From Desulfuromusa sp. (GTDB lineage Bacteria; Desulfobacterota; Desulfuromonadia; Desulfuromonadales; Geopsychrobacteraceae): DNA of 49,676 nucleotides. Position 1 is the first letter of the stretch. Each line of letters begins with the position of its first letter. Of the stretch, positions 440 to 4,726 are shown in pieces. The translations under genes and the position numbers were made by a program. The stretch is taken from NCBI GenBank assembly GCA_027858895.1, contig JAQIBX010000170.1, positions 1 to 49,676 of the forward strand, in the 5' to 3' direction. The notes beneath the pieces were generated by a model, which ran no database searches, was not told where the DNA came from, and saw only the letters and a program-made list of their open reading frames with translations.

Positions 440-481
440 ACCCGATGGATAGTCCACCAAGGATTGTCTGTCGGGTTTTTT
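440..481 (+). terminator. Rho-independent terminator-like hairpin before the terminase gene
   Basis: ACCCGA (440-445) pairs with TCGGGT (471-476), and a run of six T follows (476-481). The interior can form a further TCC/GGA helix. The hairpin ends 15 bases before the ATG of the small-terminase gene, so it would end a transcript arriving from the left, or act as a leader structure for that gene. Confidence 0.5.
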
Positions 482-496
482 ACGTTAAGAGGTAAC

Positions 497-1075
497 ATGG
501 CAACACGCAAGAAAATAGATTGGGAAAGTATTCAAGACCAGTATCGGGCTGGTCAGTTATCTATCTCTGAGATAGCCCGTCAACATACTATCACGCCTGG
601 CGCTATCCACAACAAAGCCAAGCGATATGGCTGGTCAAGGGATCTCACAGATAAAGTAAGAGAGCGTGTTAAAGCAAAACTTGTCACAGAGGATGTGACA
701 GGTCACAACGCGGATGCCATTATTGAATCAGCTTCAGATATTGGTGTCGCTGTTATCAGGACGCAAAGAAAAGATATCGCCAAGCTGCAATCACTTGAGC
801 AATCACTATTAAGTGAGCTAGGCGATGAAGAGAATAAGCCAACAAAAGTTCATGTGTCGAATTATCAGGGCGAAGTCAAACTTACGCCTCTATTGATCAC
901 TGTCACAGATAGGGCTTCTGCTCTTCAATCACTAGCCAACGTGCAACACAAGCGCATTCAGCTCCAAAGACAGGCATTCAACCTTGACGATAATAAGGGT
1001 GGCGATAATCCACTGGAAGACTTCTTCAATGAGATCCAGCGCCGGAACCAGGGGTTAAAAATTCGTGAAGATTGA
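497..1075 (+). CDS. Phage terminase small subunit-like protein
   Basis: A 192-aa protein. Its N-terminus (about residues 5-45: IDWESIQDQYRAGQ, then ISEIARQH and AIHNKAKRYGWSRDL) is the helix-turn-helix typical of phage small terminases, which recognise the packaging site and hand DNA to the large subunit. The rest is helical and hydrophilic. The frame could open 11 codons earlier (464), but ATG 497 has AAGAGG a few bases upstream and gives a normal start for the family. No large terminase, portal or capsid gene follows, so this is an orphan prophage gene. It sits between a group II intron end and a tRNA-Arg, consistent with a decayed integrated element. The family call is moderately firm; whether it is functional is unknown. 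Confidence 0.68.
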   Translation: MATRKKIDWESIQDQYRAGQLSISEIARQHTITPGAIHNKAKRYGWSRDLTDKVRERVKAKLVTEDVTGHNADAIIESASDIGVAVIRTQRKDIAKLQSLEQSLLSELGDEENKPTKVHVSNYQGEVKLTPLLITVTDRASALQSLANVQHKRIQLQRQAFNLDDNKGGDNPLEDFFNEIQRRNQGLKIRED

Positions 1076-2667: not shown

Positions 2668-2744
<77 letters not shown>

Positions 2745-2810
2745 ATAAGAGAGGCTTTATCGCTTAATTTAAGGGATTTGTCAATCCCTTTTGGATCTAG
2801 CATATTAAAC

Positions 2811-2976
2811 TGGCGGAGAAGCGGGGATTCTCCCACTTTGTCACCAGCATCACGCTGGCTCCTGCGTCGACTCCCCTGCACTCGCTGACGCGGACGTCCT
2901 GTCCGCTTTTCTGACATTAAGTCAGCGCTTGCTCCGCTTCAAATCCCCACAACAGAGATTCCGTGTTTTATTGTTA
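2811..2976 (-). repeat. rtT-like tRNA-tail repeat unit behind tRNA-Ser(GCU)
   Basis: A 166-bp unit on the 3' side of tRNA-Ser(GCU). It begins (2811-2830) with an exact 20-bp copy of that tRNA's 3' end, including CCA, acceptor strand and T-stem strand (original at 2977-2996). The core, 2841-2946, matches 3121-3226 with one mismatch in 106 bases (2870 A versus 3150 G). The core holds three hairpins, each with a 5-base loop: CCAGC/GCTGG (2844-2858), GCGGAC/GTCCGC (2890-2906) and CTGAC/GTCAG (2911-2925). The ends GGGGATT and AATCCCC are complementary and could close the structure. Established precedent: E. coli tyrT is followed by about 178-bp repeats carrying the last 19 bases of the tRNA and yielding rtT RNA. 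An equivalent RNA here is inferred. Confidence 0.75.
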
Positions 2977-3064
2977 TGGCGGAGAAGCGGGGATTCGAAC
3001 CCCGGGTAGCATACACTACACTCGCTTAGCAGGCGAGCACCATCGGCCTCTCGGTCACTTCTCC
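2977..3064 (-). tRNA. tRNA-Ser (anticodon GCU)
   Basis: An 88-nt class II tRNA with acceptor GGAGAAG/CTTCTCC, discriminator G and encoded CCA. The anticodon stem CTCGC/GCGAG holds loop CTGCTAA, giving GCU, which reads AGU and AGC. It has a long variable arm, and its T arm CGGGG-TTCGAAT-CCCCG is perfect. Its last 20 bases are duplicated at 2811-2830 at the far end of the downstream repeat unit. Confidence 0.96.
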
Positions 3065-3081
3065 GCAATCAACAACTATGC

Positions 3082-3241
3082 AATTTTAAAATGGCGGAGG
3101 AGGTAGGATTGCCCACTTCGTCACCAGCATCACGCTGGCTCCTGCGTCGGCTCCCCTGCACTCGCTGACGCGGACGTCCTGTCCGCTTTTCTGACATTAA
3201 GTCAGCGCTTGCTCCGCTTCAAATCCTGTCAAGATTCGTCT
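3082..3241 (-). repeat. rtT-like tRNA-tail repeat unit behind tRNA-Ser(UGA)
   Basis: A 160-bp unit lying between the two tRNA-Ser genes. A 29-bp direct repeat (3082-3110 and 3242-3270) contains the 3' end of tRNA-Ser(UGA) plus 10 bases of its 3' flank (TTTTAAAATT on the minus strand). The core 3121-3226 equals that of the other unit except for one base, while the tRNA-derived ends differ and in each case match the adjacent tRNA. So the core has either moved between two tRNA-Ser genes and acquired the local tRNA end, or the ends have been converted by the neighbouring tRNA. The closing ends here are AGGATT/AATCCT, where the other unit has GGGGATT/AATCCCC. On the minus strand the core encodes a small Arg-rich frame (start 3197). 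Confidence 0.75.
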
Positions 3242-3251
3242 AATTTTAAAA

Positions 3252-3337
3252 TGGCGGAGGAGGTAGGATTTGAACCCACGGAACTCTCGTTCAACAGTTT
3301 TCAAGACTGCCGCCTTAAGCCACTCGGCCACTCCTCC
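3252..3337 (-). tRNA. tRNA-Ser (anticodon UGA)
   Basis: An 86-nt class II tRNA with acceptor GGAGGAG/CTCCTCC, discriminator G and encoded CCA. The anticodon loop CTTGAAA gives UGA, which reads UCN codons ending in A (and others by wobble). It has a long variable arm. The gene lies 117 bases downstream of serS, whose product charges it. Its 3' end is repeated at 3092-3110. Confidence 0.96.
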
Positions 3338-3454: not shown

Positions 3455-4726
3455 TTATTTTTCGATCTTCTGCAATCCACCCATATAAGGTTGCAGCACT
3501 TGAGGAATCAGCACTGAGCCATCTTCCTGCTGATAATTCTCAAGAATCGCCAGCAGAGTTCGCCCAACTGCCAAACCCGAGCCGTTCAGCGTATGCACTA
3601 ATTCTGGTTTTTTAGCCCCTTCACGCCGAAAGCGGATTGATGCTCGCCGCGCTTGAAAATCACGAAAGTTGGAACAAGAGGAAATTTCCCGATAACATTC
3701 CTGTCCCGGCAACCAAACCTCAATATCAAAAGTCCGCGCAGCCGAAAAGCCAATATCTCCGGTACAGAGATCAATTACCCGGTAAGGAAGCTGCAATAGC
3801 TGTAGAACTTTTTCGGCATTCCCCAGCAATGCCTCTAGTTCGGCATCTGAATCTTCGGGGCGAACAAACTTGACCAACTCAACCTTATTAAACTGATGCT
3901 GGCGAATCAATCCACGGGTATCCTTCCCATGAGAACCCGCTTCCTTGCGAAAACATGGAGTGTAAGCGGTGTAACAGAGGGGCAGATCCTTTTCGGCAAG
4001 GATTTCATCCCGATGGATATTAGTCACTGGGACCTCTGCCGTTGGAATTAAAAACAGGTCCACATCTTCGGTGTGAAACAAATCACTTTCAAACTTGGGC
4101 AGCTGACCAGTTCCAGTCATCGAAACTCGATTAACCAGGAAGGGCGGCAGGGTTTCAGTATAGTTATGTTCGTCTGTATGCAGATCGAGCATAAAATTGA
4201 TCAATGCCCGCTCCAGCCGTGCCCCGGCTCCAAAATAAATACAAAAACGCGCTCCAGAAAGTTTTGCAGCTCGCTCAAAGTCAAGAATGCCAAGATCCTC
4301 ACCAACATCCCAATGTGCTTTGGCTGCAAATTTTAAAGCAGGTTTTTCACCCCAGGTACGAATCTCAACATTATCCTCCTCTGAGATTCCAACCGGACAG
4401 TGCTCATGCGGGATATTCGGAACCCCCATCAGCAGTTCATTGAGTTGTTCTTCCACAACACGCAACTGGTCATCCAACCCTTTGATCAGGCCAGAAACGT
4501 CCTTCATCCGAGCGATTTCATCCTGAACCTGGCTCTTGTCTTTGGTCCGACCAATCAATGTCGAAACTTTATTTTTTTCCGCTTTGAGAGATTCAGCTTC
4601 GTTGAGCAGTTCACGACGCCGTTGATCCAACGTTTGAAAACCAGAAAGATCCACCTTTCCACCACGGGAGGCAAGTGCCTTTTCAGCACCCTCAAAATTT
4701 TCGCGCAAGTATTTAATATCGAGCAT
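3455..4726 (-). CDS. serS: Seryl-tRNA synthetase
   Basis: A 423-aa class II synthetase that charges tRNA-Ser (and tRNA-Sec where present) with serine in the cytoplasm. Residues 1-100 form the long antiparallel coiled-coil arm that grips the long variable arm of tRNA-Ser. The catalytic domain follows, with motif 2 near 259-277 ([20 protein letters not shown]) and motif 3 near 381-400 ([20 protein letters not shown]). Length is normal for the family. ATG 4726 has ACAGGAG upstream. The gene is followed on the same strand by two tRNA-Ser genes, an uncommon linkage of enzyme and substrate RNA. Confidence 0.97.

Follow-up and report, generated by a model that had tools for sequence, protein, structure and literature searches.

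A family of RtT-like repeats with host-matched ends behind tRNA and tmRNA genes in Desulfuromonadales

RtT repeats and the serine tRNA locus of Desulfuromusa sp.

RtT repeats are known from gammaproteobacteria, where their role and origin are unclear. For the RtT RNA, read-through from the tRNA promoter and trimming by tRNA 3'-processing enzymes have been reported. At E. coli tyrTV, each RtT unit carries GGGGAAGGAT, which pairs with ATCCTTCCCC of the tRNA-Tyr 3' copy and is followed by the CCA tail. Other tRNA operons have also been named as RtT hosts, and in A. pleuropneumoniae (Pasteurellaceae) the RNAs have been detected on northern blots (PMC4986893). In Salmonella, rtT is listed as a VNTR (PMC2658671), and RtT has been reported to contain a tandem G-A motif (PMC7657543).

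We analyzed a window of 49,676 nt from a Desulfuromusa sp. assembly (contig JAQIBX010000170.1), in which two serine tRNA genes are each followed by a repeat unit (Table 1). The minus strand carries, in succession, serS, tRNA-Ser(UGA), unit 1, tRNA-Ser(GCU), unit 2, a promoter-like site, and tRNA-Arg(ACG). A direct repeat of 115 nt with 98% identity (2832-2946 and 3112-3226) joins the two units, bearing out the sequence-only reading of this DNA, which had described a 106-bp core with one mismatch. The cores are near-identical, yet both ends of each unit vary in step with the host tRNA. In unit 1, for example, GGATT of the 5' arm and AATCC of tRNA-Ser(UGA) are reverse complements; the ends of a unit can pair because its 5' end is the reverse complement of the T-loop/T-stem of its own tRNA. 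The earlier claim of tRNA-matched repeats of 20 bp (GCU) and 29 bp (UGA) is exact for the former, while the latter consists of 19 nt of tRNA and 10 nt of spacer.

The promoter-like TTGACA-16-GATAAA sequence is retained, in the spacers that we compared, by relatives both with and without the unit. Directly upstream of both serine tRNA genes, on the same strand, lies serS (3455-4726, minus strand), a seryl-tRNA synthetase gene by sequence. Near tRNA-Arg, an ORF at 464-1075 (plus strand) resembles a phage small terminase or DNA-binding subunit and possibly marks a prophage edge.

Table 1. Features of the serine tRNA locus, in window positions
Feature	Position	Strand	Basis
tRNA-Ser(UGA), host of unit 1	3252..3337	-	ARAGORN; Rfam tRNA
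Spacer between tRNA-Ser(UGA) and unit 1	3229..3251	-	sequence; initial 10 nt reappear after the 3' copy
Unit 1 5' arm, AGGATTTG, reverse complement of the host T-loop/T-stem 3' strand	3220..3228	-	sequence; helix 1 covariation
Unit 1 core, with hairpins H1, H2, and H3 and helices P2 and P3	3111..3219	-	repeat search; covariation
Unit 1 3' copy, last 19 nt of tRNA-Ser(UGA), T-loop to CCA	3092..3110	-	repeat search
Unit 1 29-nt direct repeat (3092-3110 plus 3082-3091)	3082..3110	-	repeat search
tRNA-Ser(GCU), host of unit 2	2977..3064	-	ARAGORN
Spacer between tRNA-Ser(GCU) and unit 2	2951..2976	-	sequence
Unit 2 5' arm, including GGGGATT, reverse complement of host T-arm AATCCCC	2940..2950	-	sequence; covariation
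Unit 2 core	2831..2939	-	repeat search; covariation
Unit 2 3' copy, last 20 nt of tRNA-Ser(GCU)	2811..2830	-	sequence
Promoter-like TTGACA-16-GATAAA, between unit 2 and tRNA-Arg(ACG)	2757..2784	-	sequence; spacer comparison
tRNA-Arg(ACG), without a unit behind it	2668..2744	-	ARAGORN

The units resemble RtT (RF00391) in several respects. They lie directly 3' of a tRNA on the same strand (165 of 172 units in the family described below); their closing helix is built from the 5' arm and the copied T-stem 3' strand, with the acceptor strand and CCA unpaired; and they form tandem copies of which the last is fractional, as at E. coli tyrT. They differ from RtT in core sequence and inner hairpins, in a far wider range of hosts that includes tmRNA and SeC, in often standing behind a terminator, and in belonging to another phylum. 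At two conserved internal loops of the core, the alignment places GA opposite GA, which can be set beside the tandem G-A motif of RtT as a juxtaposition that does not establish equivalence of the motifs.

The RF00391 covariance model, which scored the E. coli units at 133–138 bits as a positive control, found no match in the window, in the organism's own genome at E 10, or at eight loci at E 1, so that the Rfam scan suggested in the sequence-only reading was negative. Applied to E. coli tyrTV (1.5 kb), our unit-family model gave the RtT units 7–9 bits (best 8.9, E 0.03); the four units held ranks 1–4, with the score coming mainly from the closing helix, and homology of the core to E. coli RtT was not detectable in this comparison. 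Because RF00391 finds no match, the units are RtT-like and not members of Rfam RtT. The E. coli tyrT/RtT precedent invoked in the earlier reading thus stands for architecture (position, matched closing stem, CCA tail, and fractional tandem copies) and falls for RF00391 membership. On this sequence evidence, the units are best read as a new, uncatalogued RtT-type family that has the RtT architecture and a core not detectably homologous to that of RtT. It is a large, separate family in another phylum, with about 20 kinds of host tRNA plus tmRNA; a literature search found no description of such repeats in Desulfuromonadales.

Hosts, matched ends, and fold

We searched relatives using blastn (60 genomes) and covariance models (across the order and the phylum), which yielded many more units. 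Deduplication left 172 units for which 420 nt or more of upstream sequence could be seen. A tRNA or tmRNA gene lies upstream on the same strand within 700 nt of 165 of these, and within 100 nt of 145. Several of the seven exceptions stand after tRNA or tmRNA ends that escaped ARAGORN or were truncated; these cases involve a visible tRNA-Asn, tmRNA ends, the 3' half of a tRNA-Ser, and an insert resembling an intron ahead of the unit, and a few exceptions fit none of them. The behind-tRNA rule was also obeyed at 20 loci, most of them drawn from genomes that are complete or have long contigs. Among the hosts are Ser (all four), Gln, Glu, Pro, Arg (four anticodons), Leu, SeC, Asn, Ala, Lys, and Tyr tRNAs as well as tmRNA, amounting to about 20 anticodons plus tmRNA, and the host tRNA is left intact. 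At the Ser(UGA)/Ser(GCU) cluster the unit is kept across families. A terminator-like hairpin precedes 45 of 146 units. At four loci (L092, L098, L237, and L243) the unit stands behind a tmRNA gene and its arm fits the tmRNA T-arm.

Both ends of the units are matched to the host. The unit 3' end agreed with the last 19 nt of its host at a mean of 17.8 of 19 positions, compared with a mean of 11.3 for other isotypes. This copy was perfect in 108 of 152 units and matched at 17 or more positions in 128, and in 135 of the 152 the unit's own tRNA fitted it better than every other isotype. The two computationally checkable outcomes that the sequence-only reading had named as counting against it, a core found mostly away from tRNA genes and copies behind other tRNAs that lack the matched 3' end, were thus not what we observed.

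The 5' arm follows the host as well: 8.02 of its 9 positions pair with the T-arm of the unit's own tRNA (2000 permutations: mean 6.94, maximum 7.15). Exact tracking is seen for the Gln T-loop GATCCC by arm GGGATC (ten times), the Leu T-loop GAGTCT by AGACTC (five times), and the tmRNA T-loop GATTCC by GGAATC (four times, with the same pair for SeC), and AAATCC of Ser(UGA) and Pro(CGG) is tracked by GGATTT. Recurrence across the order, together with the permutation test of the 5' arm, excludes a chance origin of the pattern. At one locus (L026, 1500-1650), a unit behind tRNA-Gln has a Gln-matched 5' arm, yet ends in a serine tRNA 3' end; this hybrid is either a recombination of two units or an assembly chimera.

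The fold of the units is conserved. Across 36 diverse members, 93.2% of cells were paired and 24 of 37 pairs had changed on both sides; none of 500 shuffles reached any of the five measures, and slid controls gave 27–43%. When distant members were added, 92.4% of cells were paired and 31 pairs showed change on both sides, in a model-aligned set whose alignment leans to structure. Covariation supports the three hairpins with 5-nt loops that had been proposed from the window alone. Within the H2 loop, GGA is almost invariant (CAGGAYG), and the H3 loop is usually GTGAT.

The conserved pairs also carry a strand sign. Outside the closing helix, G-U cells outnumbered A-C cells 30 to 6, and 68 to 9 in a larger set, which indicates that the tRNA-sense strand is the strand that folds. 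The ratio was 13:2 in units with terminator-type hosts and 55:7 in units without, and paired cells reached 97.7% in units behind a terminator-like hairpin vs 97.9% in other units. Because terminator-preceded units are paired equally well, co-transcription is not needed for whatever maintains the fold. An RNA processed with the tRNA would be compatible with the sense-strand fold, a reading that loses weight because a terminator-like hairpin stands ahead of 45 of 146 units; read-through past the terminator could still yield RNA from these.

Distribution, arrays, and spread

The presence of the unit is patchy. Within the order, it was found in 72 of 136 genomes (E 1e-6), at 1 to 14 copies each, and complete and near-complete genomes without it exist. 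Searched with a broader model, a spread sample of the phylum gave 31 carriers among 395 genomes, with several other families represented. An exact pattern run across 84,980 named species matched 40 stretches, from entries titled Desulfuromonadales, Desulfuromonadaceae, Geobacteraceae, or “Deltaproteobacteria”, or from members of Desulfuromusa and Pelovirga. Isolates are among these carriers (Desulfuromusa kysingii DSM 7343 and Pelovirga terrestris M08fum), so the family is not a metagenome artefact. Phage and plasmid collections (blastn) and viral contigs (exact pattern only) contained no match to the unit.

The window's own genome (2.8 Mb, 98.7% complete) holds two further full copies, behind tRNA-Gln(UUG) and tRNA-Pro(UGG), both with host-matched ends. 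A fifth, decayed copy behind a second tRNA-Gln retains its 5' arm and a portion of the core; beyond these four full copies and the decayed one, the genome search returned no other significant copies.

Units grow in tandem, with arrays of two or three behind one tRNA, in which tRNA 3' end, spacer, and core follow one another as the repeating period. After the last 3' copy, homology often crosses the spacer and 15–45 nt of further core. This continuation into a second core softens a clean target-site-duplication reading and points to fractional tandem copies.

Occupied and empty sites could be compared at two tRNA genes. Behind tRNA-Leu(CAG), one genome (G024) has a unit together with a ∼60-bp duplication that takes in the tRNA 3' end and terminator, another (G031) has a decayed unit, and two (G017 and G028) have none; the Ser(GCU) unit of the window is missing in a genome of the same genus (G007). 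Decayed and truncated copies occur among relatives. Since gain and loss are unpolarised in these site comparisons, precise deletion may account for some of the empty sites. For 25 of 91 units the nearest relative came from within the same genome, with 3 expected, and for 27 of 91 it stood behind the same tRNA, with 10 expected. The latter excess indicates that many units are inherited in place, and the two together that within-genome spread or conversion and inheritance in place both occur. Movement between tRNA 3' ends, one of two possibilities raised in the sequence-only reading, is thus supported indirectly, by occupied vs empty sites, within-genome similarity, and patchiness.

Explanations for the family

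We moderately favour an element that spreads among tRNA and tmRNA 3' ends, leaving the tRNA intact, and whose sense-strand fold acts as RNA. Such an element would insert at the 3' side of a tRNA gene, duplicating the target 3' end together with any terminator; because this end is duplicated, the tRNA would stay functional and the element would acquire a right end that matches its new host. Matching of the left arm would come afterwards or simultaneously, through templated correction or selection. The folded sense strand is probably RNA, which would arise by read-through from the tRNA promoter followed by trimming by tRNA 3'-processing enzymes, and its cellular effect, if any, would be dispensable. 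Empty and filled sites and visibly re-matched ends make both parts of this reading testable, namely spread between tRNA genes and production of a structured RNA with a tRNA end.

The strong conservation of the fold, the bias of G-U over A-C on the sense strand, and the conservation of the unit at the Ser(UGA)/Ser(GCU) cluster across families would also suit a regulatory or housekeeping RtT-like RNA that is selected at each tRNA locus, processed from the tRNA transcript, and copied by duplication and gene conversion without being mobile. The RtT RNAs of A. pleuropneumoniae, visible on northern blots (PMC4986893), lend this alternative a precedent. We nevertheless consider it doubtful, given that units are missing from about half of the order's genomes, complete ones included, that decayed and truncated copies exist, that terminator-preceded units fold equally well, and that there are about 20 different hosts, tmRNA among them.

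A purely DNA-level selfish repeat, folding as ssDNA during replication or transfer, moved by a host or trans-acting enzyme and without RNA function, would account for the fold retained in terminator-preceded units, the duplication of the target 3' end, and the patchy distribution, and we hold it to be a tentative possibility, rather unlikely on balance. Against it, no dedicated enzyme was found: Y1_Tnp occurs in element-free genomes and was not found in three carriers (G014, G047, and G054). To our knowledge, target duplications of ∼40–90 bp with fractional arrays are unlike any known HUH or DDE element, which also tells against this explanation.

No recombinase or transposase was linked to the family: the presence of CsrA, RVT_1, and Y1_Tnp does not track with the units. 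REP/BIME repeats, which are associated with RAYT (Y1), are likewise short hairpin repeats with many copies per genome, but REPs are scattered between genes, whereas the present units are bound to tRNA ends. An origin by RAYT/REP was rejected, with Y1_Tnp nearly everywhere, element-free genomes included, and not found in the three carriers named above. Group IIC introns share with some units a position just past a terminator downstream of a tRNA; the unit family differs in having no ribozyme or reverse transcriptase, and RVT_1 is missing from many carriers. Spread by a resident reverse transcriptase was also rejected, RVT_1 not being found in the high-copy carriers G004, G011, G020, and G033. 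At one locus (L235), a group II intron-like end lies directly before the second unit; this sequence is separate from the unit, which is otherwise like those associated with tRNA-Leu.

We give little credence to a new kind of guided mobile element, a distinctly unlikely scheme in which the T-arm-complementary 5' arm would be a targeting guide (RNA or ssDNA) for insertion on the 3' side of any tRNA or tmRNA, the target 3' end would be copied so that the target stays functional, and the arm would be reprogrammed to suit the new host by re-templating from the copied T-arm, with enterobacterial RtT as another branch.

Fractional last copies in arrays, as at E. coli tyrT, and the VNTR behaviour of rtT in Salmonella (PMC2658671) fit passive tandem duplication, in which an old insertion is amplified by unequal recombination and gene conversion and does not spread to other tRNAs. 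This is very unlikely: nearly the same core stands behind Ser, Gln, Glu, Pro, Arg, Leu, Ala, Asn, Lys, and SeC tRNAs and tmRNA, with its ends re-matched, and the host range inside single genomes largely refutes the explanation.

Duplicated tRNA 3' ends are a hallmark of integration into tRNA genes. The units could on this ground be taken for attachment-site scars left by phages or islands for which the tRNA T-arm is the integration site, and two of them do lie behind a tRNA-Ser 3' half beside an apparent island. Such an origin is highly improbable for the family, in which the DNA between the repeats consists of a conserved folded core of ∼110 nt with no room for a gene or integrase, the 5' arm and the 3' copy are both fitted anew to each tRNA, and no match came from the phage and plasmid collections by blastn or from viral contigs by exact pattern. 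For annotation, the converse deserves attention, since an apparent integration scar with a duplicated tRNA 3' end may be such a repeat. At the two loci beside the apparent island (L233 and L236), the tRNA-Ser 3' half alone precedes the unit and the upstream DNA is similar in both, which looks like an island integrated into tRNA-Ser with the unit left behind.

A CsrA sponge is scarcely credible: the CAGGAYG loop, with its near-invariant GGA in H2, and other GGA motifs resemble the CsrA-binding hairpins of CsrB, but H3 is usually GTGAT, the motif is not repeated many times per RNA as in CsrB/RsmZ-type sponges, and CsrA was not found in the organism's own genome (98.7% complete) or in carriers G003, G020, G028, and G058, so that sponging as a general function was rejected.

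At one locus (L198), the second terminator is followed by CCGCTCA in short tandem repeats and by a dispersed palindrome that recurs elsewhere in the genus.
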